Source: Sphingobacteriales bacterium (GTDB taxonomy: Bacteria; Bacteroidota; Bacteroidia; Chitinophagales; Chitinophagaceae). From it: 44,145 nucleotides of DNA. Shown here piece after piece: positions 21,372-37,541 of this stretch; position 1 is the first letter of the stretch, and each line of letters starts with the position of its first letter. The stretch spans positions 1-44,145 of the forward strand of contig JAHEZE010000014.1 of NCBI GenBank assembly GCA_023251235.1, read 5' to 3'. A program made the translations under genes and the position numbers. Under the pieces are notes generated by a model. It ran no database searches. It had not been told where the DNA came from and saw nothing but the letters and a program-made list of their open reading frames with translations.

Positions 21372-22115
21372 TTAATTTAATATCGCTTCCTGCAACTCTT
21401 TAAATGTGCCAATTGCTTTTGGGAATAGAATATTATTCTCCAGGTGTACATGCTGATGTAAATCCAGTTCAAAAGCTCTTAAAGAGGCAAAACTTAAAGC
21501 ATAAGTTGTACATGCATCCGGAGGAGCTGTATAATCATTGCTCAGCATTCTTATCTCATTCAGCAAATTTCCTGCATGATCATGTTCCTGCTCCATAATC
21601 GTAATCGGTGATTGCAGGTAAGTAATATTGAGTTGCAGATTTACAGCTTCCAGGTCAGCCAGTTTCTGTAATTCTTTTATGCGGGGAAATAAAATATGTT
21701 CTTCTTTTTTCATGTGCCCTTCCATTTCTTCTTTTACCGCAGCAAAAATCTGAAATATTTTATACAATTCCGGGTGTCGTTCACCATGCTTTGATGAAAC
21801 CTTTTGCAGATAAGCATTGAGTTGAGGCATTTCATCTTTTACATAGGCATGATGTGTGTGTACGATATAGTCACATAGTTGGGTCATATTCATATTGTCA
21901 AACTCAATTGCTTTTGTTTTGTCATTTCCGTTAAAAATATTTTCCAGTTCGGCCGTTACAACAGTAACAGGAATTTCCTGCTCTGCACAGGCTTGTTCTA
22001 AAGAACGTTTTCCTTTGCAGCAAAAATCAAGGCGGTATTTTTCAAATATGTTTGCTGCTTTATGATTACTGTTTACGATCTGGGCCAGCGTAAGAGAGGT
22101 CAAAGATGTATTCAT
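21372..22115 (-). CDS. ric: Iron-sulfur cluster repair di-iron protein (Ric/ScdA/YtfE)
   Basis: A 247-residue protein that repairs Fe-S clusters damaged by NO or peroxide. The N-terminal DUF542 domain has the family motif DFCCKGKRSL (Cys32-Cys33), and the rest is a hemerythrin-like four-helix bundle with His/Glu ligands of a di-iron site (VHTHHAYVKDE, EGHMKKEEHILFPRI, MEQEHDHAGN, DLHQHVHLENNILFPKAI). It has its own promoter with two FNR-type boxes. It lies downstream of the heme-copper cluster on the same strand, with a 195-bp gap, and has a paralogue at 36795-37541. Confidence 0.93.
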   Translation of the reverse strand: MNTSLTSLTLAQIVNSNHKAANIFEKYRLDFCCKGKRSLEQACAEQEIPVTVVTAELENIFNGNDKTKAIEFDNMNMTQLCDYIVHTHHAYVKDEMPQLNAYLQKVSSKHGERHPELYKIFQIFAAVKEEMEGHMKKEEHILFPRIKELQKLADLEAVNLQLNITYLQSPITIMEQEHDHAGNLLNEIRMLSNDYTAPPDACTTYALSFASLRAFELDLHQHVHLENNILFPKAIGTFKELQEAILN

Positions 22116-22310: not shown

Positions 22311-24272
22311 TCATTTCACTGGTTTTGATTCTTTGGTGGCTTTGGCTAGCTTTCCATCTTTTAAGATAATAAATATGCCATCACCCCTTTCCATAGTTAC
22401 ATGTTCAAGACTTTGCTTTTTATCGGTAAATGCAGTTTCAGTCAGGTAAACATTTATTTCATCTTCTTTTAATTTCAATTCTGTATAAATAAACATGGCA
22501 ATATCCTGTCGCCAACCTCTTGGTGTAAATTCTTTTTCATAAAGAAGTTTTCCATCTTTTGCAGAGGTAATTTCAAGTTTTACCGGGCTTCTTTTCTTTA
22601 CCACCGGAATCTTTGATTGCATGTGCTTTTCCTCCGATTGTATTTTTTCAAATTCAGTGGGAGCAGAAACATATTTCATGTTCACTATTAGTGTTTTTTC
22701 ATTTTTATCATAAAAACGGACTACGGTACTGCTCAGTGGAATCATCAGCAGGAAGAAACCGGTCATAATACCGGCCGATAATACATGATTAATGCGGAAG
22801 TAATCTTTATATTGAAATTTATTTTCCTGAACAGCAGTATTTGTTTTACCTGCTGCTTCCACAAATCCTTTCAGCAGTTCCGGTTTATATTGCGAGATGG
22901 TGAACAGCTTCACATTACTCACATTTATTTTTTTTGAAAATACCGGTGGTCGTTTTCTCAAAAAACGAAGTATGGCCCATGTTTTTCCTTTCCGGTAATA
23001 ACAATCCTCGCAACTCAGCATAGCCACCGCCTTGGAACGGTTTTGTGCAATAGCCTGAACATCTTTTGCCAGCACACTTCCAATACAAGGAACTTTAAGG
23101 TGCTCATACTGTAAGCCGCTTGGGATATCAAATTCTTTAAAATATTCGCAGGAAAGAACAGTAAGGTCATTTTTCTGTTCCAATGAATTTCTATTGATTT
23201 CAGGAAACCCAGGCATAGTAATAGCATGTTCACGGCATGAACCGATACAGATGCCACAGCTTACACATTTGGCAGGATTCAAAATGGCTTTTCTTTCACC
23301 TTTATAAATAAGCATATCAATAGCATCGTAGGGACAATCATAAGAACATAAATTACAGGAATCACATTTATCAAGATCAATAAGTGCCGGTGGTCTTTGT
23401 TTTCTTTTTAAAACATGAGGAATGATGGAAAGTAATAACCCAGAGCCAATAAGGATCATCCAGTTTACTCTTACAGAAAAGAGTTTAAGCAGGTAATAAC
23501 CGAAATAATAATACCAGTCAAACGTGGTTTCAACAGGAAGAAAAGTTTGCTGCGCCGGGGAATCACTTTTTACGGGAAACACAATTGAAATAACAGCGAC
23601 AGCTGCCAAAACATAGATCATTAATAATCTGGAAGGAAATATTTTTGGTTTGGAAATTTTCATCACATGAATCCATAGAATGATTACGGTAAGCACCGAA
23701 AAGAAAATATGACCAAACAAGGCTACCCTGAAGAAGCCACCGATAGTTTCCAGATCATTCAGTAAAAAAGCACCGGCAATTGACGCATCAAAGATGGGAA
23801 GACCTGAAAAAAATCTGGCAGTGAGAAAGCCTACCAGTTTTGCTTTCTGATCCCATACCAGCAGAAATCCGGTAACACCGATAAGCAGAACAACAAGAAA
23901 AGAAATCACTCCACTGATCCATGAAAGCATTCTTTTGAATTTTCCTGTAATCAAGGTATGAATCAGGTGGAGCAGAATAAATATGACCAAAAGATCGGAA
24001 GAATAACGGTGTACTGTTCTCATCCAGTCATTAAAAAAGTTAGTTGAAATTTTTTGAACTGAATCATATGCATGTAAAGGATCTATATTGTAAAAGAGAA
24101 AGACATAGAAGCCTGAAATAACTGCTACGGTAAATAAAAAGACAGCAATAGTTCCCAGTTGGTAAAGGGGATTGAGTTCTGTAGAATAGATGCGGCTGAA
24201 AAAAGAAGCAAAACGCTGGTAAAGTTGATGGCCTTTTATTCTGACCGGTAGAATTTTTATTGCTTCATTCAT
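22311..24272 (-). CDS. Cytochrome b / ferredoxin / MvhD-like fusion membrane protein
   Basis: A 653-residue modular redox protein. Residues about 35-235 are a cytochrome b N-terminal domain with two His pairs, His88/His102 and His188/His202, each spaced as in bc-complex cytochrome b, so two hemes b. Another helix follows (about 271-286), then two [4Fe-4S] motifs (C303, C306, C309, C313 and C336, C339, C342, C346). Residues about 370-440 (Cys375, Cys396, Cys421, Cys424; motif LSCEDCYYRKGKTWAILRF) resemble the MvhD/FlpD hydrogenase iron-sulfur subunit. A last helix (about 485-508) precedes a basic C-terminal domain. It overlaps the sco gene by 8 bp, so it is translationally coupled to the heme-copper operon and likely moves electrons between the quinone pool, a soluble donor and that enzyme. 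Exact partner unknown. Confidence 0.8.
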   Translation of the reverse strand: MNEAIKILPVRIKGHQLYQRFASFFSRIYSTELNPLYQLGTIAVFLFTVAVISGFYVFLFYNIDPLHAYDSVQKISTNFFNDWMRTVHRYSSDLLVIFILLHLIHTLITGKFKRMLSWISGVISFLVVLLIGVTGFLLVWDQKAKLVGFLTARFFSGLPIFDASIAGAFLLNDLETIGGFFRVALFGHIFFSVLTVIILWIHVMKISKPKIFPSRLLMIYVLAAVAVISIVFPVKSDSPAQQTFLPVETTFDWYYYFGYYLLKLFSVRVNWMILIGSGLLLSIIPHVLKRKQRPPALIDLDKCDSCNLCSYDCPYDAIDMLIYKGERKAILNPAKCVSCGICIGSCREHAITMPGFPEINRNSLEQKNDLTVLSCEYFKEFDIPSGLQYEHLKVPCIGSVLAKDVQAIAQNRSKAVAMLSCEDCYYRKGKTWAILRFLRKRPPVFSKKINVSNVKLFTISQYKPELLKGFVEAAGKTNTAVQENKFQYKDYFRINHVLSAGIMTGFFLLMIPLSSTVVRFYDKNEKTLIVNMKYVSAPTEFEKIQSEEKHMQSKIPVVKKRSPVKLEITSAKDGKLLYEKEFTPRGWRQDIAMFIYTELKLKEDEINVYLTETAFTDKKQSLEHVTMERGDGIFIILKDGKLAKATKESKPVK

Positions 24273-25008
24273 TGATGCGGGCAGTTTTAAAAGTTTTCAG
24301 CAGGAGAGTAGAGATGATAATAATAAAAAATATTCCGGCACTGGTGGAAATTATAAAGCCCCAGTTCAGCAAATAAGTTTTTGTAACCGGATCAAATGCG
24401 AAACATTTCAGGTAAAGACCTTTGAAAAGACTCAGCCTTGTTTTTTCGGTACTGGCTTCCAACACGGCCAGTTTAATATCTTTTGCTTTTGGAGTTAATC
24501 CATAAATGTATCTTGAAATTCTTCCACTCGGAGTAAGAATAATAATCACATTGGGATGAATAAACTCCCCGCTCTTGGAAATATCATATTGATAATCTAA
24601 AGATTTCAACAATTTTTGAATTTCGGGATAAGAAGCAGTGGTGGCTCTCCAGGCTTCACCATCAATATTCCAATGGGATTCAAAATTTTCAAGTTCTTCT
24701 TTTCTATCACTACTGTCGAATGAAAAACTAACGATAAAAAAATCTTTCCCAAGTGTTCCAAGTCTATCTGTACTTTCTTTTAACCCATTACTTACAATGG
24801 AACATGTGGAAGGACATTTGGTATAAATAGGGCTAAGGATGATTGGCTTTTTATTCAGTAAAGAAAACAATTCATATTGTCTCCCTTTGGCATCCTGCAG
24901 TAAAATGTTTTCCACCTTGCGGCCGATAAATTTATTTTCATCAGGAAGATTGAAACTGCTGCACAGGAATAACAGCATACATAATAGTATGAATTTACTT
25001 TTTAACAT
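24265..25008 (-). CDS. SCO1/SenC family copper chaperone with C-terminal anchor
   Basis: A 247-residue protein with a signal peptide, a thioredoxin-like SCO domain (about 30-190) and a C-terminal transmembrane helix (about 214-236). The copper ligands are present: C-P-S-T-C in IYTKCPSTCSIV and the distal His in GEFIHPNVIII. SCO proteins build the CuA centre; the adjacent subunit II has a complete CuA site, so that is its likely client. It lies 80 bp after subunit I, with a strong hairpin in the gap, and overlaps the following cytochrome b fusion gene. Confidence 0.92.
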   Translation of the reverse strand: MLKSKFILLCMLLFLCSSFNLPDENKFIGRKVENILLQDAKGRQYELFSLLNKKPIILSPIYTKCPSTCSIVSNGLKESTDRLGTLGKDFFIVSFSFDSSDRKEELENFESHWNIDGEAWRATTASYPEIQKLLKSLDYQYDISKSGEFIHPNVIIILTPSGRISRYIYGLTPKAKDIKLAVLEASTEKTRLSLFKGLYLKCFAFDPVTKTYLLNWGFIISTSAGIFFIIIISTLLLKTFKTARINE

Positions 25009-25088: not shown

Positions 25089-26777
25089 TTAATTTACATT
25101 CCATGTTGCAGCCAGCCACTTCCAGTTCAAGAAAAACAGAACAAGGAAAGTAAGCAGGAACAATAGGGTGAGTATAAGGGTACCGGGTGCCTCATACCCT
25201 TTATGTTTCTTACCTTCCGGTGCCAGCGCAGAAATTTTCAATTGCATATCCTGCGGTCCATTTACTCTTGGCCCAAAGAAAACAGATACTACTACCTGTA
25301 AAACCCAGAGAAGCGCTGCTGTAAATGCAAGAGAGCCGCCCAACATCATCAGGGTCCAAAAGAAATCAACGGCAGGATTAAAATTGTGTGTAAATGGCCC
25401 ACCGCTGAATGATGCGTCCCAGTGACGGCGGGGTACACCAAACTGACCCAGCACAATCATGGATACAGACAATATGGCTATGCCGATGAAAAATAACCAG
25501 GGTATTGCTTTCGCAAGTTTAAATGCTACAATTTTTCTGCGAAATATTAATGGAATGAGATAGTAAGTAATGCCCATGAATGTAAGCGTAGTGCCAATTA
25601 CAACTGTTCCTTTAAAATGACCGGGAATTGCCAATGTATTGTGAACAATAATATTGGTTTGCTCCATTCCGAAAATAACTCCGGTGGTACCACCAATAAA
25701 ACCAAATCCGATACAAGCCAGCACAATGGATGAAAATGCGGGGTTACCCCAAGGCGCTTTACTCAGCCATTCAAATAATCCTTTACTGTATCCCCATCTT
25801 CTTTGTGCCGATTCAATAGATGATGGAACAGCAAATGCATGTATCATTGATGCCAATACAGCGAGATACATTGCATAACTGGTGTTCCAAACTTTCCATG
25901 CACTGCTGAGTCCGGGGTCAGTCATGAGGTGATGTGCTGAAGCTAGGCAGATAAAGAAAATGTATAAAACAAAAGCCGTTCTTGAAATTCTTTCATTGAT
26001 ACTGGTGCCTCCGACAGCTAAAAAGGATACGAGATACCAGATACTAACCATGGCCGCCACATTGATTTGTTGTGATGAGTGGCCAAGCCCCCACCAGATC
26101 AGTTTGTACATTCCAGCATCAATATTCTGAATCAACCCGACTGACCATAAAAAAGTTGGAATATAAATAATAGCTCCTGATGCAAGAGTGATAACTGCAA
26201 TGATTGCGGCCGCCATCAAACCATATGTGAACAAGGGTAAGGTTTCACCATAAGTTTTTTCTTTTCTTGCAATCATCAGATTACCGAAGAAAAGAGCTAC
26301 GCCCAGTAAGGCGCCAACGGCAAATAAAATAATGCCCAGATAATATAATGGATGTGCTTTTATGGGAGCATAAGATGTCATCATCACATCGGCTTTTCCA
26401 CTCAGCACCATTACATTTACCATAATCATACCTCCAACCATTAATATAAAAGAAAGCCATCCCAGTTTCGGGGCACAGAATCTTGTATTTAACACAACGG
26501 TGGACCCAAAATACAAACCGGCTATTTCAAAAAACACAATCCAGAAAATGAGGGCATTTAATCCATGAAATGTGACCAACCGGTAATACCATTCTGCGGA
26601 AAGTAAATGCACCGGTTGATAACGGGTAAATACCAGCAGGATAGCGCCAACTATAGCCATTAATAAACAAACAACTGCTACCACGGCGTTCACCCGGATA
26701 AGTGTTTGTGATCTCAGATCCACTTTGAAGCCGGTGATATCGCATGTGCGGTGAGGTATATTTAGTAAGGTATCCAT
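25089..26777 (-). CDS. Heme-copper reductase subunit I, B-family-like, probable NO reductase
   Basis: A 562-residue, about 13-helix catalytic subunit related to ba3-type oxidases. Low-spin heme ligand His71 (TFHGLNALIFW), CuB ligands His233 and the pair His282-His283 (SAHHLMTDPG), and high-spin heme ligand His387 (IPGHFKGTV) are all present. Two key positions differ from O2 reductases: the helix VI motif is HSSQQ, so Gln237 replaces the cross-linked Tyr, and Lys389 stands where the second low-spin heme His is expected. Loss of the Tyr is a feature of NO-reducing members of the superfamily (eNOR and similar lineages), and no NorB/NorC is present although nosZ and two ric genes are. I infer NO reduction; O2 reduction cannot be excluded. 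It lies 15 bp after subunit II. Confidence 0.8.
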   Translation of the reverse strand: MDTLLNIPHRTCDITGFKVDLRSQTLIRVNAVVAVVCLLMAIVGAILLVFTRYQPVHLLSAEWYYRLVTFHGLNALIFWIVFFEIAGLYFGSTVVLNTRFCAPKLGWLSFILMVGGMIMVNVMVLSGKADVMMTSYAPIKAHPLYYLGIILFAVGALLGVALFFGNLMIARKEKTYGETLPLFTYGLMAAAIIAVITLASGAIIYIPTFLWSVGLIQNIDAGMYKLIWWGLGHSSQQINVAAMVSIWYLVSFLAVGGTSINERISRTAFVLYIFFICLASAHHLMTDPGLSSAWKVWNTSYAMYLAVLASMIHAFAVPSSIESAQRRWGYSKGLFEWLSKAPWGNPAFSSIVLACIGFGFIGGTTGVIFGMEQTNIIVHNTLAIPGHFKGTVVIGTTLTFMGITYYLIPLIFRRKIVAFKLAKAIPWLFFIGIAILSVSMIVLGQFGVPRRHWDASFSGGPFTHNFNPAVDFFWTLMMLGGSLAFTAALLWVLQVVVSVFFGPRVNGPQDMQLKISALAPEGKKHKGYEAPGTLILTLLFLLTFLVLFFLNWKWLAATWNVN

Positions 26778-26792
26778 ATAATTTTTTTTAAA

Positions 26793-27719
26793 TTATTTTT
26801 TCAATGATTTGATGTAAACGATCAGCTGATCGATCTCTTCATTGCTGACTGTCAAAACCGGCATCAGGACCTTTTCAAATCCTTTGGTGATTTTTTTCTG
26901 TGGTTCAAGAACGGATTCTTTAATGTATTCTTCATTCACTATTACATCTGAAGTATTTCCATCGGCAATTACCGTTTCTTTTTTACCAAATAATCCATTC
27001 CAGGCCGGAGCCAGTAGTGTGGTGCCATCAGTTTTATGGCAGGTTACACACCCTTTCAAAGTATAAAGTTGTTCCCCGGCTGACATCATTTCCGCTTCTG
27101 TTTTGGGCACTCCGGCATTTGCCGAATCTTTTTTAAATACTGTGGGAGCTTTCAATTTGTCATATCCATATTTAACTAAATCCGCATCTGATTCAATCAC
27201 CACTATTTTTCCTATCATAGTATGATGGCCGATGCCGCAGAATTCATTACAGATAATTTTAAATTCACCGCTACTGGTAGGTTTAAAATGAAGTACATAA
27301 TCATAGCCGGGGTAAATCTGGAAATTCATATTGACAGGCTGAAGAGAAAAGCCATGCATCAGATCTTTGGATGAAATGTGAATATTGTACTGTTCATCTT
27401 TTTTCAGAATCAGCACAGGTGACCAGCGCCACATTTCACCCATCACCAGCACATCACTGTTCGGTTCAGGCTTTACTACCGGCACCCCGTTATCCACTCC
27501 CATCATATTCTTTTTGAGATAGGCCTCAGCCATTTTAGCGTATTCTTTTGGCGATGTGCGGTAGGTGACATTAGATGGATTTTGTTTTCCATACACGTGC
27601 CACATAATCATCCATACAAAAAGCATAATGCAAAGCAATAGTGATATCACCATCCACATTCTTTCATCTTTAGCCACCGGTTTGTGATACCAGCCCTGGA
27701 CAGGTGTTAGTAAACTCAT
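26793..27719 (-). CDS. Heme-copper reductase subunit II with CuA and fused cytochrome c
   Basis: A 308-residue electron-entry subunit. One N-terminal helix (about 21-41) anchors a cupredoxin domain with a complete CuA site: His122, Cys157, Glu159, Cys161, His165, Met168 (MHGFSL and CNEFCGIGHHTM). A C-terminal cytochrome c domain follows (C224-V-T-C-H228 in LKGCVTCHKT, axial Met in EKVLMPVLTV). This caa3-like layout means electrons come from a soluble cytochrome c or cupredoxin through heme c to CuA and then to subunit I. It follows the small subunit gene by 26 bp. Confidence 0.93.
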   Translation of the reverse strand: MSLLTPVQGWYHKPVAKDERMWMVISLLLCIMLFVWMIMWHVYGKQNPSNVTYRTSPKEYAKMAEAYLKKNMMGVDNGVPVVKPEPNSDVLVMGEMWRWSPVLILKKDEQYNIHISSKDLMHGFSLQPVNMNFQIYPGYDYVLHFKPTSSGEFKIICNEFCGIGHHTMIGKIVVIESDADLVKYGYDKLKAPTVFKKDSANAGVPKTEAEMMSAGEQLYTLKGCVTCHKTDGTTLLAPAWNGLFGKKETVIADGNTSDVIVNEEYIKESVLEPQKKITKGFEKVLMPVLTVSNEEIDQLIVYIKSLKK

Positions 27720-27745: not shown

Positions 27746-27931
27746 TTATTTAAGGATCTGATCTTTCAGATCGCCGGGAAACTGGGGCAGGTTGGATAAT
27801 TCCATTACTCCCCAAATGAGATAAAAGATGGCGTAAATAGTAACGCCGATAAAGAGGAGCAACATGTAATCATCCATAATCATTTTCCAGAAAGGAGTTT
27901 TTTCATTCTCCTCGTTGATGTTATTTTCCAT
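27746..27931 (-). CDS. Small single-helix subunit of the heme-copper enzyme
   Basis: A 61-residue protein with one transmembrane helix (YMLLLFIGVTIYAIFYLIWGV) and hydrophilic ends. I use the ATG at 27931 (MENNINEENEKTPFWKM); an in-frame ATG at 27994 would add a Cys-containing hydrophilic leader. As the gene directly before subunit II it is probably an accessory subunit comparable to the small IIa subunit of ba3 oxidases. A good -7 element TAAATTTG (27975 to 27968) lies upstream but without an FNR-type box at the usual distance, so it may be cotranscribed with the regulator gene 138 bp upstream. Confidence 0.72.
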   Translation of the reverse strand: MENNINEENEKTPFWKMIMDDYMLLLFIGVTIYAIFYLIWGVMELSNLPQFPGDLKDQILK

Positions 27932-28068
27932 GTTGTTTTGGTTTGAAGTGAAACAATGCTCGCAGGCCAAATTTACCTGCTGTGATTGCTGCATTTCTTT
28001 GTCATACAGCTGTTAATTCTTTAAAAAGTATGTTTTCGTAAAAAAGACAGGGAGGTATGAAATGAAAC

Positions 28069-28779
28069 TTATAGAGATTGATCAGCGGAGGTAACTGCTT
28101 CTAGTTTTTGAATATCCAGTAATTTGAAATGCTTTGCCCTGAAATTAATCAGTTTTTCATTTTTAAAATCTGTAAGAACTTTTGAAACCTGTTCTTTTGT
28201 AGTAACGGTAAGATCGGCTATTTCCTGTCTTGTTAAATGAATATGTATGCCGTTGGGTTGTAATTTGTATTTATATACTTCTGCAATATGCAATAATATA
28301 CCGGCAATTTTTTCTCTGACAGTTTTATGCACCAGGTGAAGGGTTCTCATTTCGATATTTTTCATTTCTCCGAGGTAGGCTTTTATAATTTCTTTGCGGA
28401 AGTCGGGGCAGTTTTCCATCAGGAATTGGAAATGATGAGTGGCAAGGAAACAAACCTGTGAATTTTCAACTGCCACAACAGAAACCGGGTACTGGTTAAT
28501 GCTTTCGGTAATCCGATGTCCAATAATATCACCTTCTTTTGCCAACCGCATGATTAACGGCCTGTTCTTTTTACCATTCAGCTCAATTTTTATTACACCT
28601 GATTTTACAAAAGCTACATTCAATGCCTCTTTTCCTTCATTGAAAATTTTTTCGCCCCGTTTAATTTGCCTAAAAATTTTTTTATCAGTAATTTCTTTTA
28701 ATACATGACTGCTGCAGTTATTTAAAACAGAGCAACCCCTTGCCCTGCAGGTGAGGCAGGATGGATTTGAATAGGTCAT
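28069..28779 (-). CDS. FNR-like CRP-family regulator with N-terminal cysteine cluster
   Basis: A 236-residue transcription factor. Four cysteines at the N-terminus (Cys8, Cys11, Cys16, Cys22) resemble the iron-sulfur cluster region of FNR, so O2 or NO sensing is plausible. A cyclic-nucleotide-type effector domain follows (about 30-145), then a helical dimerisation region and a winged helix (LTRQEIADLTVTTKEQVSKV). The recognition helix has E-Q-V-S-K, close to the E-x-x-S-R of FNR, fitting half-sites with a TGA core. Its own promoter carries such a site, and it stands at the head of the heme-copper cluster. It is the leading candidate for the regulator of the TGA-N6-TCA regulon. Confidence 0.9.
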   Translation of the reverse strand: MTYSNPSCLTCRARGCSVLNNCSSHVLKEITDKKIFRQIKRGEKIFNEGKEALNVAFVKSGVIKIELNGKKNRPLIMRLAKEGDIIGHRITESINQYPVSVVAVENSQVCFLATHHFQFLMENCPDFRKEIIKAYLGEMKNIEMRTLHLVHKTVREKIAGILLHIAEVYKYKLQPNGIHIHLTRQEIADLTVTTKEQVSKVLTDFKNEKLINFRAKHFKLLDIQKLEAVTSADQSL

Positions 28780-33523: not shown

Positions 33524-35524
33524 CTATTTTTTATCTGTTGTGGTTGTAACTGCAGGAGCTGTTTTACCGGTACTAAATGATATCGGAACATTAGAACCGG
33601 CAGCGCTTACTCTTATATACCCCTGCATTTCCTGGTGCAATGCAGAACAGAAATCAGTACAATATATTGGATATACACCCGGCTTTTCAGGTTTCCATGC
33701 CAGTGTTTGAGTTTCACCTGGCATAATGAGTAGTTCAGCATTATTTGCTCCTTTTACTGCAAAGCCGTGTGGCACATCCCAATCCTGTTCAAGATTAGTT
33801 ACATGGAAATAAACCATATCACCCATTTTTACACCTTCTATATTGTCTGGGGTAAAATGGGATCTGATTGCTGTCATGTAAACATGTATTTCATTTCCTT
33901 TGCGCTCTACCCTGGCAAACTTATCTCCAAGTGCTGCATAAGGATTTTTATTTTCTTCTATCTTATAAATTTTCTGACTGTTTTTCATAATCAAAGAAGC
34001 TGGTATTGCCTCCGCATAGTGTGGTTCGCCAATGGTGGGGAAGTCAAGAATCAATTTCATCTTGTCACCGCTGATATCATACAATTGTGCACTTTGAGCC
34101 AGCTCGGGACCTGTAGGCAGGTAACGGTCTTTGGTTATTTTATTGTAAGCAATAAGATACTTACCCCATGGTTTTCTTGTTGGGCCTCCCGGAACACTCA
34201 GATGGCCTACGGAATAATAAGTTGGCACACGGTCTACCACCTCCAAAGATTTTACATTCCATTTTACAACTTCAGAAGATACAAAGAAAGAAGTATAGGC
34301 AAATCCATTATCATCAAATTCAGTATGCAAAGGTCCGAGGCCCGGCTTCTTAACTTCACCATGAAGAACTGCATCATATTTCAATACTGGGATACCTTCA
34401 TAGTCTCCTTCATAATTTTTAGCAGCAATGGCGGCCTGAATTTTTGTAAATGAGAATACAGGAATTACGGCTGCCAGCTTACCGCTTCCTACAATATATT
34501 CACCAGTAGGATCTGTATCGCAACCATGTGGAGATTTTGGACAAGGCATAAAATAAACCATGTCGGGACAATCTTTTGGATCCAGCATCATCACCTGATT
34601 TTCGATGGCAGAAGATGCCATCTGTTTTTGTTCATCATAAATATTATGCGCATATTTTACTGACTGCAATTTCCCTTTTCCCGCTTTTGCATATTCTTCT
34701 GCTTTTTTCCAGTTTACACAAAGAATAAAATCTTTATCTTTTTGAGTAGAGTTAACTTCAAGAAGCGTATTGGCTCTTTCTGAATTATAACAGCTAAAAA
34801 ACATCCAGCCATGTGATTTTCCTTTGCCAGCCCGGGCAAGATCAAAATTTACACCCGGTAATAAAATCTGGAATGCAATATTCATGTTTCCTGAAGTTTT
34901 ATCAACACCAATAAAACTTACGGTACCATGGAAATTTTGTTTATAAGTATTGATTGGAACATCTCCATTACTATTATCCATTGGGATACTAAAACGGGTA
35001 CCGGCTACTACGTACTCAGAATTTTCTGTAATAAAAGGAGAGGAGTGGTTACCTGCGCTGTTGGGAATTTCAATAATTTCTGCTGTGCGGAAAGTTTTTA
35101 AATCTATCCGGGCAATACGCGGAGTATTGTTTCCATTTCCAAAAACCCAGCGGCCATCCTGGATGCCATCAGTTTCAGATAATGCTATATGGTGCAGATC
35201 ATCCCAGGGAACGAAACCATGTGAAGTATTCAGCATTGCTTTTGTTTCCTCACTATATCCATATCCTTTTTCAGGATCTACAGAAAAAACGGGAATGACA
35301 CGAAACAAACGACCGGATGGAATTCCATACACTGACATTTGCCCGCTAAAACCTCCGGATACAAAGTTGTAAAATTCATCATACTTGCCGGGGGCTACAT
35401 ACACTTTTGATGCGGCATCACCACTAACCGCTGATTGAGCTCCTTTTGGTTTACAACTTTGCAGCCAGGTAAAAGTGGAGGCTGTCAAAGCAACCAGCAG
35501 GAATGTTTTGAATAAAGATTTCAT
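33524..35524 (-). CDS. nosZ: Nitrous oxide reductase, clade II, lipoprotein type
   Basis: A 666-residue enzyme reducing N2O to N2. The N-terminus is a Sec lipoprotein signal (TFTWLQSC, Cys24) rather than the Tat signal of clade I, which marks clade II. The beta-propeller bears the His-rich CuZ segments (WDDLHHIALSETDG, NHSSPFITE, SPHGCDTDPTGEYIVG, GPLHTEFDDNGFAY, GEPHYAEAIPASL). The C-terminal cupredoxin has a full CuA site, Cys622, Cys626, His630, Met633 in CTDFCSALHQEMQGYI. Length is normal. It follows a cytochrome c lipoprotein gene, its likely electron donor, by 95 bp with no FNR-type box between, so it is transcribed from the shared promoter at 36146-36188. Confidence 0.98.
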   Translation of the reverse strand: MKSLFKTFLLVALTASTFTWLQSCKPKGAQSAVSGDAASKVYVAPGKYDEFYNFVSGGFSGQMSVYGIPSGRLFRVIPVFSVDPEKGYGYSEETKAMLNTSHGFVPWDDLHHIALSETDGIQDGRWVFGNGNNTPRIARIDLKTFRTAEIIEIPNSAGNHSSPFITENSEYVVAGTRFSIPMDNSNGDVPINTYKQNFHGTVSFIGVDKTSGNMNIAFQILLPGVNFDLARAGKGKSHGWMFFSCYNSERANTLLEVNSTQKDKDFILCVNWKKAEEYAKAGKGKLQSVKYAHNIYDEQKQMASSAIENQVMMLDPKDCPDMVYFMPCPKSPHGCDTDPTGEYIVGSGKLAAVIPVFSFTKIQAAIAAKNYEGDYEGIPVLKYDAVLHGEVKKPGLGPLHTEFDDNGFAYTSFFVSSEVVKWNVKSLEVVDRVPTYYSVGHLSVPGGPTRKPWGKYLIAYNKITKDRYLPTGPELAQSAQLYDISGDKMKLILDFPTIGEPHYAEAIPASLIMKNSQKIYKIEENKNPYAALGDKFARVERKGNEIHVYMTAIRSHFTPDNIEGVKMGDMVYFHVTNLEQDWDVPHGFAVKGANNAELLIMPGETQTLAWKPEKPGVYPIYCTDFCSALHQEMQGYIRVSAAGSNVPISFSTGKTAPAVTTTTDKK

Positions 35525-36794: not shown

Positions 36795-37541
36795 ATGCAA
36801 GCATTCAAAATAGATGCTACATCATTTGTCAGCGATATAGTCACTCATGATTATAGGAGTGCTGATGTTTTTCGTAAATATGACATAGATTTTTGCTATG
36901 GAGGCAAGTGGTCTTTAGAATTGGCCTGCAAAGCCAAAGGCCTGGATACTGAAGAAATATTAAAAGAACTAAAGCGTTCAATGAGGCATTCTGTTTCAAG
37001 CGCTTCATTGGAATTTGATGAATGGAATATTGATTTCCTGGCTGATTATATACTGAATATTCATCACCGGTTTTTGAGTAAAGCGCTTCCGGAAGCAAAT
37101 GATTATGTAAAAAGGTTTCTCGAGGGTCACAGAAAAAAATATCCTGAGATGGCGGAACTTGAAACTATTTTGCAGAGAATGATGAAGGAAATACCCCCCC
37201 ACATGAAAAAAGAAGAAGATGTTATTTTCCCGTATATTAAACAAATAAATCATGCCTGGCGTCACCGAGAGTCGTATGCCAGCTTGTTGATCCGCACCTT
37301 ACGCAAACCGGTAGAAGAAGTGATGCAAGGGGAACATGAAACTGTTGGCAAACAACTTCATCGTATAAGGGAAATCACTAATCATTATACCCCTCCGGAA
37401 AATGCCTGTGTTACGCATAAAATAACTTATAACAAACTTCAGGAAATGGATAATGATCTGGTTCAGCACATCCATCTCGAAAACAACATTCTTTTCCCCA
37501 AAGCTATTGCTATGGAAAAAGAATTACTTCAAAGTTTTTAA
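36795..37541 (+). CDS. Second Ric/ScdA-like di-iron protein, variant DUF542 motif
   Basis: A 248-residue paralogue of the protein at 21372-22115. It shares the DUF542 plus hemerythrin layout, with di-iron ligand segments LNIHHRFLSKALPE, PPHMKKEEDVIFPYI, MQGEHETVGKQLH and DLVQHIHLENNILFPKAI. In the DUF542 motif the usual Cys-Cys is Cys34-Tyr35 (IDFCYGGKWSL), so one conserved cysteine is lost. It may have a different role, for example NO or O2 scavenging rather than cluster repair. It has its own FNR-type promoter 93 bp after the Rrf2 gene. Confidence 0.88.
   Translation: MQAFKIDATSFVSDIVTHDYRSADVFRKYDIDFCYGGKWSLELACKAKGLDTEEILKELKRSMRHSVSSASLEFDEWNIDFLADYILNIHHRFLSKALPEANDYVKRFLEGHRKKYPEMAELETILQRMMKEIPPHMKKEEDVIFPYIKQINHAWRHRESYASLLIRTLRKPVEEVMQGEHETVGKQLHRIREITNHYTPPENACVTHKITYNKLQEMDNDLVQHIHLENNILFPKAIAMEKELLQSF

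Follow-up and report, generated by a model that had tools for sequence, protein, structure and literature searches.

The gene at positions 25089..26777 (minus strand) of the window, the whole stretch of 44,145 nucleotides of Sphingobacteriales bacterium DNA that was analysed, encodes a heme-copper subunit I of the eNOR type (562 residues) with two unusual residues. Gln237 (codon 26067..26069, minus strand) stands in place of the Tyr that is cross-linked to a CuB ligand in O2 reductases, and Lys389 (AAA codon, 25611..25613, minus strand) in place of the second His of the low-spin heme. We consider it probable, at roughly two chances in three, that this protein is an NO reductase of the eNOR type, in which His71 and Lys389 would hold the low-spin heme.

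Gln237 and Lys389 in subunit I and its relatives

The protein belongs to the heme-copper superfamily, as its COX1 domain scores far above the curated cut-off (PF00115, 216.6 bits; cut-off 34.8), and the plus strand over 25089-26777 has many stops. The phmmer search identified Thermus ba3 oxidases as its nearest solved relatives (best E 4.2e-45), in agreement with a profile search. The alignment placed GHSSQQ on GHPIVY in helix VI and PGHFKGTVV on PGHFHLQVA in helix X. Because it is ungapped at both places, Gln237 corresponds to Tyr237 of ba3, which we take to be the cross-linked Tyr, and Lys389 to His386, presumably the low-spin heme ligand. The remaining ligands are all present: His233, His282 and His283 for CuB, His387 for the high-spin heme and His71 for the low-spin heme. 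The subunit thus has five of the six His ligands (three for CuB, one for the high-spin heme and two for the low-spin heme), the sixth being Lys389. To our knowledge, ligation of the low-spin heme by two His residues is a fixed trait of heme-copper enzymes. The earlier note had claimed Gln for the active-site Tyr, GHFK for GHFH with His387 retained, and the presence of His71, His233 and His282/283; translation and alignment bear out all of these. A shift of the alignment that would let another His fill the ligand place can be set aside, as the nearest one, two residues earlier, is His387 itself. The protein therefore shares the fold and ligand frame of the Thermus ba3 oxygen reductase (1ehk), and ba3 oxidases are its best PDB matches in both sequence and structure, but it differs from that enzyme at these two positions.

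The residue at the Tyr position also distinguishes the classes of NO reductases: according to the accessible part of PMC8756737, it is Gln in eNOR, Asn in sNOR and CuANOR, and Asp in gNOR. The protein of the window resembles CuANOR/bNOR, sNOR and gNOR as heme-copper NO reductases without the Tyr, but Gln237 separates it from the Asn of CuANOR and sNOR and from the Asp of gNOR, and likewise from the B-family (ba3) oxidases with their cross-linked helix VI Tyr. The features in common with eNOR, as described in the portions of PMC8756737 and PMC4653789 available to us, are this Gln, a cupredoxin subunit II encoded beside subunit I and a denitrification context. Apparently unlike eNOR, the enzyme of the window has Lys rather than His as the second putative ligand of the low-spin heme, and a cytochrome c motif on subunit II.

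We then assessed how widely the two residues occur. The conservation set contains 163 rows, of which the 139 with at least 40% identity were kept on identity alone. Position 237 is Gln in all 130 of these that cover it, and position 389 is occupied by Lys (109 rows) or His (29 rows) and by no other residue among 138 covering rows. Merging near-copies reduced this set to 105 rows: 75 carry Lys, 29 carry His and one does not cover position 389. All 24 rows below 40% identity have His at position 389, and 22 of them have the Tyr. Among the rows from the whole-genome search with at least 40% identity, the four centre genomes excluded, we counted 40 Lys and 27 His, with one row short of position 389.

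In the host's family, 12 of 294 genomes, its own included, gave matches at E <=1e-60, and all 12 rows (the window and 11 others at 81-88% identity) have both residues. Twelve of the 298 genomes of the host's order matched, with eight new loci, seven with Lys and one short of position 389. In the phylum sample, 45 of 395 genomes matched at 1e-40, again counting its own; the 29 new loci that were scored (L017-L045) comprise one with Lys and Gln (72% identity), 14 with His and Gln (40-52%) and 14 with His and Tyr (29-32%), matches beyond these 29 being unscored. Three further phyla were chosen because the Lys form was already known there: Nitrospirota, the phylum of Candidatus Magnetobacterium (15 of 148 genomes matching at 1e-90; 3 Lys, 12 His), Aquificota (19 of 136; all 19 Lys) and the phylum of bin HR19 (3 of 5; 2 Lys, 1 His). 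In three Nitrospirota loci of the His form (L137, L139 and L140), subunit I ends at ~512 residues. A small open reading frame directly downstream, with its own ATG, supplies the final membrane helix, with a sequence like ..PGTFVIG..NWKWL..; in the window, this helix is fused to subunit I.

A codon-level scan of GTDB genome contigs for P-G-H-F-K-[GA]-T-V-V, a pattern that selects for Lys, yielded 56 stretches. Fifty-five contain a subunit I frame that has Lys; Gln is present in all 47 stretches that cover helix VI. One locus (L080, Mucilaginibacter) proved to be a chance DNA match devoid of a subunit I frame, and its row was dropped. As the pattern demands both the proline and T-V-V, the scan misses Thermus (VVGHFK) and many Aquificota (PGHFKGAVV).

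Operon, gene neighbourhood and host genome

In gene direction, the operon codes for an FNR/CRP-type regulator, a small membrane protein, subunit II, subunit I, a Sco protein and a cytochrome b-ferredoxin protein, all on the minus strand. The regulator (28069..28779) matches cNMP_binding and HTH_Crp_2 and lies below the FnrL cut-off. The small protein (27746..27994; 82 residues, start codon uncertain) has one likely membrane helix, and a search for family matches gave none. Subunit II (26793..27719; 308 residues) harbours a COX2 domain (PF00116, 24.2 bits) with the CuA motif CNEFCGIGHHTM, followed by a C-terminal cytochrome c domain (CVTCH; PF00034, 31.2 bits); a cupredoxin-type subunit II is thus encoded beside subunit I, as in eNOR. 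The SCO1/SenC-like protein (24265..25008; PF02630, 23.5 bits, cut-off 22.8) likely has a role in CuA assembly. The last gene (22311..24272) codes for a cytochrome b (PF00033, 58.9 bits) fused to a two-cluster ferredoxin region (Fer4, 35.6 bits), possibly the entry point of electrons to the eNOR-type enzyme. This protein also has a long C-terminal part, and its gene belongs to the operon in different phyla; a cytochrome b gene is found in a His-form locus of Defluviimonas as well.

The composition of the operon is conserved. Among 55 Lys-form loci, counting only those with room and matches on the same strand, subunit II is encoded in 37/37, the small protein in 35/36, Sco in 48/48, the cytochrome b-ferredoxin protein in 30/33 and the FNR/CRP-type regulator in 20/33. 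The CuA motif adjoins 92 Lys-form, 26 His-form and one further Gln-form loci, ten others being too short upstream; L108, the sole locus with room that lacked the motif in a first count, has it as well. In 54 Lys loci of this survey, a cytochrome c motif is fused to subunit II. NosZ-labelled matches beside some loci were taken as the CuA domain of subunit II and not as nosZ genes.

The operon of the window is located between a nos cluster and a RIC gene. Profile matches above cut-offs were obtained for a Sec-type nosZ (33524-35524; TIGR04246, 944 bits, cut-off 625), for two RIC proteins (21372-22115 and 36795-37541), and for nosD (TIGR04247), a cbb3 gene (CcoN/O fusion) and CcoG; NosF, NosY, NosL and CcoP were named by reading or from matches below cut-off. 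The region 13480-37541 thereby combines cbb3 genes, the two RIC proteins, the eNOR operon and the nos cluster. These matches agree with the earlier description of an FNR-led operon next to ric and nosZ, and reading the open reading frames of at least 150 residues in the window revealed no norBC, as that description also had it. FNR-like boxes in the window (7 versus 6.0 expected) gave no signal, and PADLOC returned no match.

In the host genome, which is 95% complete, COX1 was matched four times: by a protein with an aa3-like GHPEVY motif (contig C26), by the cbb3 gene and the eNOR-type gene (both on C18), and by a qNOR-like protein (C101), which was named from its sequence and has no NCBIfam match at 1e-10. 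Because of this qNOR-like protein, the eNOR-type enzyme need not be the main NO sink of the host. No match to PF02239 (NirS) was found in the genome, and the two TIGR02376 (NirK) matches are weak, far below cut-off; hence, the genome itself shows no source of NO. The host may consume NO and N2O without carrying out the whole of denitrification.

Plasmid copies in Thermus and the phylogeny of the Lys form

A tblastn search of plasmids retrieved 32 records at 1e-30, ten of them from Thermus. Four of these ten were examined, all of them denitrification plasmids of Thermus thermophilus (TF24, NAR1, SNM6-6 and HB5018), and all four code for subunits with Gln and Lys. A plasmid of Thermomicrobium roseum (L104) carries a form with Gln and His; its helix X reads PAHFHMTVV, with Ala instead of the Gly that normally precedes the high-spin His, and it is adjoined by a heme O synthase gene. 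In all four T. thermophilus plasmids, an Rrf2-type gene directly follows that of subunit I, and the next small gene codes for a DUF542 protein in three and a hypothetical protein in TF24. The Lys-form genes are located beside nirS in TF24 and NAR1 and beside a multicopper oxidase gene in SNM6-6 and HB5018, with no nirS listed in the stretch examined of the latter two.

The NAR1 locus (L110) corresponds to the gene pair published as 'CbcBA' (TTHNP4_195/196), to which it was matched by its place before nsrRST. The sections of PMC7694296 at hand report that norCBH is absent from NAR1 and that its authors found it tempting to propose NO as the substrate of the two 'oxidases' encoded just before nsrRST. 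They also describe an insertion sequence between this pair and nirK, and suggest that nitrite respiration has been lost; in the passages on the gene pair, the heme ligand is not mentioned. The Lys form thus occupies the place at which NO reductase genes are located in denitrifying strains. The NAR1 protein has the same Gln and Lys as that of the window but is only 45% identical to it, and subunit II of the related locus L103 lacks the cytochrome c motif. Perfect matches to NsrR boxes in three of these loci (L108, L109 and L110) were found only near nirJ and nsrS, and none just before the eNOR operon.

For phylogenetic analyses, the 123 non-identical rows with at least 400 aligned residues, out of 163, were thinned to 93, 71 and 45; column 389 was omitted from the 71-row tree, and the trees comprise no characterised eNOR, sNOR, gNOR, nNOR or bNOR sequence. 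In the 71-row tree, the 60 Gln rows group together in a single clade, separate from 11 ba3-type Tyr rows (SH-aLRT 100), and the more careful 45-row tree separates 36 Gln rows from nine such rows with a support of 100/100. The Gln clade is thus apart from the ba3-type O2 reductases sampled, rather than grouped within them. A main Lys clade was recovered in both trees (34 rows at 100 and 19 rows at 93/99, respectively), with members from Bacteroidota including Kapaibacteria, magnetotactic Nitrospirota, Aquificota and the unclassified bins HR19 and HR21. The two Thermus Lys rows fall outside it in both. In the 71-row tree, they neighbour a group of His rows that came from the Bacteroidota phylum sample (91, with a long-branch warning); in the 45-row tree, they neighbour a single His row (L175), adjacent to the main Lys clade (94/95). 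Both trees need two changes to account for Lys, and a single origin was not rejected by the AU test (p 0.152).

Heme pocket and proposed function

The pocket of the low-spin heme appears to be maintained. In the set of 139 rows, His71 (125/125), His387 (138/138), Arg450 (135/135) and Arg451 (135/135) are present in all covering rows, which is what retention of a six-coordinate low-spin heme would predict. Together with the alternation of His and Lys at position 389, this pattern leads us to infer that Lys389 is a ligand of the low-spin iron. The proposal of Lys as an axial ligand in the earlier note therefore stands in part: the Lys is genuinely present, is conserved and occupies the position of the axial ligand, and its binding to iron is what the sequences suggest.

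Alternatively, Lys389 might pair with a heme propionate or water in an eNOR whose heme near His71 would be five-coordinate, which we regard as unlikely. The few His/Lys hemes reported often have labile Lys ligands, in the part of PMC6879331 consulted, in line with this alternative. The AlphaFold model, for which the protein of the window was combined with 21 relatives of the Lys form (22 rows in all; mean pLDDT 72.7), has a ba3-like fold according to Foldseek (TM 0.72, 24% identity), but its pLDDT is below 50 at residues 367-390, and the geometry at Lys389 is hence not usable. The residues found at position 389 in the 138 covering relatives, Lys and His, are both able to bind iron, which argues against an unbound Lys. 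The main Lys clade and the His rows differ at 23 positions, 389 included; those that are acidic in the Lys clade, D13, D20 and D510, are not close to 389 in the sequence and offer no obvious partner for the charge of the Lys. Another of the 23 is residue 75, a turn beyond His71: 32 of 34 Lys rows of the main clade have Ala there, and 23 of 24 His rows have Met or Leu, but the two Thermus Lys rows keep Met, which speaks against a simple link with Lys389.

The adjoining cbb3 operon makes an oxygen-related role thinkable, and the enzyme could be an O2 reductase for low oxygen that dispenses with the Tyr and is under FNR control. We find this improbable. The FNR/CRP-type regulator and the ba3 oxidases as nearest solved structures are compatible with it; against it stand the invariant Gln in relatives of at least 40% identity, the split of the clade from the ba3-type oxidases and the location of the Thermus copies in nitrite/NO islands. 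Among the sequences used for the trees, positions that are fixed in the Gln rows and different in the ba3-type rows include Glu84, Gln236, Gln237, Asn239 and His313.

Replacement of one axial ligand could also mean that the low-spin heme has been lost, with CuA electrons passing directly to the active site. This is very improbable, given that His71 is present in all 97 Lys rows covering it and that both Arg residues are kept, and that the substitution is by one residue only rather than by drift. The other likely NO reductase of the host would fit a Lys that is an accident of this lineage in a decaying gene, but this reading, like that of an assembly error, is barely credible in view of the 55 subunit I frames in the GTDB scan, the many independent assemblies with Lys-form genes and the purifying selection seen when the gene was compared with five relatives (pS 0.72-0.85 vs pN 0.09-0.21).

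The assignment to eNOR is thus well supported, since the literature names Gln in place of the Tyr as the mark of eNOR, the alignment leaves no other His for the ligand place and the protein does not group inside the ba3-type O2 reductases sampled. The position of the genes beside nirS or a multicopper oxidase gene in the Thermus plasmids, the absence of norCBH from NAR1 and the location between a nos cluster and RIC in the window also speak for it. Loss of the Tyr, which the earlier note had taken as a sign of an NO reductase, is in this respect well supported by the sequence comparisons. Besides the cbb3 operon, the qNOR-like protein of the host, its lack of NirS and of NirK above cut-off, the missing NsrR box before the Thermus operon, and the insertion sequence in NAR1 with the suggested loss of nitrite respiration count against the eNOR reading. 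In the eNOR-type enzyme, electrons would be transferred from cytochrome c, here fused to subunit II, to CuA, and from there to the low-spin heme putatively held by His71 and Lys389. They would then reach the site formed by the high-spin heme (His387) and CuB (His233, His282 and His283), where two NO would be converted to N2O, with Gln237 at the place of the cross-linked Tyr of O2 reductases.

One might go further and regard the protein as having a natural His/Lys low-spin heme that breaks the six-His rule, was possibly gained more than once (in Thermus and in the main clade) and uses Lys as a labile or proton-linked ligand to gate electron entry to the NO site; this extension is speculative, and we rather doubt it. 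A studied His/Lys heme is that of TsdA, an unrelated diheme thiosulfate dehydrogenase, for which the available portion of PMC6879331 states that amine for thioether ligation lowers the potential.

Sequences without six His ligands were discarded in the classifier described in PMC3084760, as far as its accessible text goes, and the Lys forms would thus drop out of such data. In the open literature searched, parts of which were accessible, we found no Lys-ligated heme-copper enzyme; an earlier report may exist in the main eNOR study, which lies outside that literature. The Lys variant of the eNOR-type enzyme may hence be new, with the caveat of a possible earlier mention.

The diversity of NO reductases has reportedly been covered by Murali et al. 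(PNAS). Our analyses indicate that Lys has replaced His at the position of a low-spin heme ligand throughout a clade of probable NO reductases whose members come from several phyla. Thermus thermophilus is a cultured, genetically workable species, and its plasmid copies make the question of His or Lys ligation testable. The swap of His and Lys within one enzyme family would represent a natural experiment on the role of an axial ligand in respiratory electron transfer and N2O formation.
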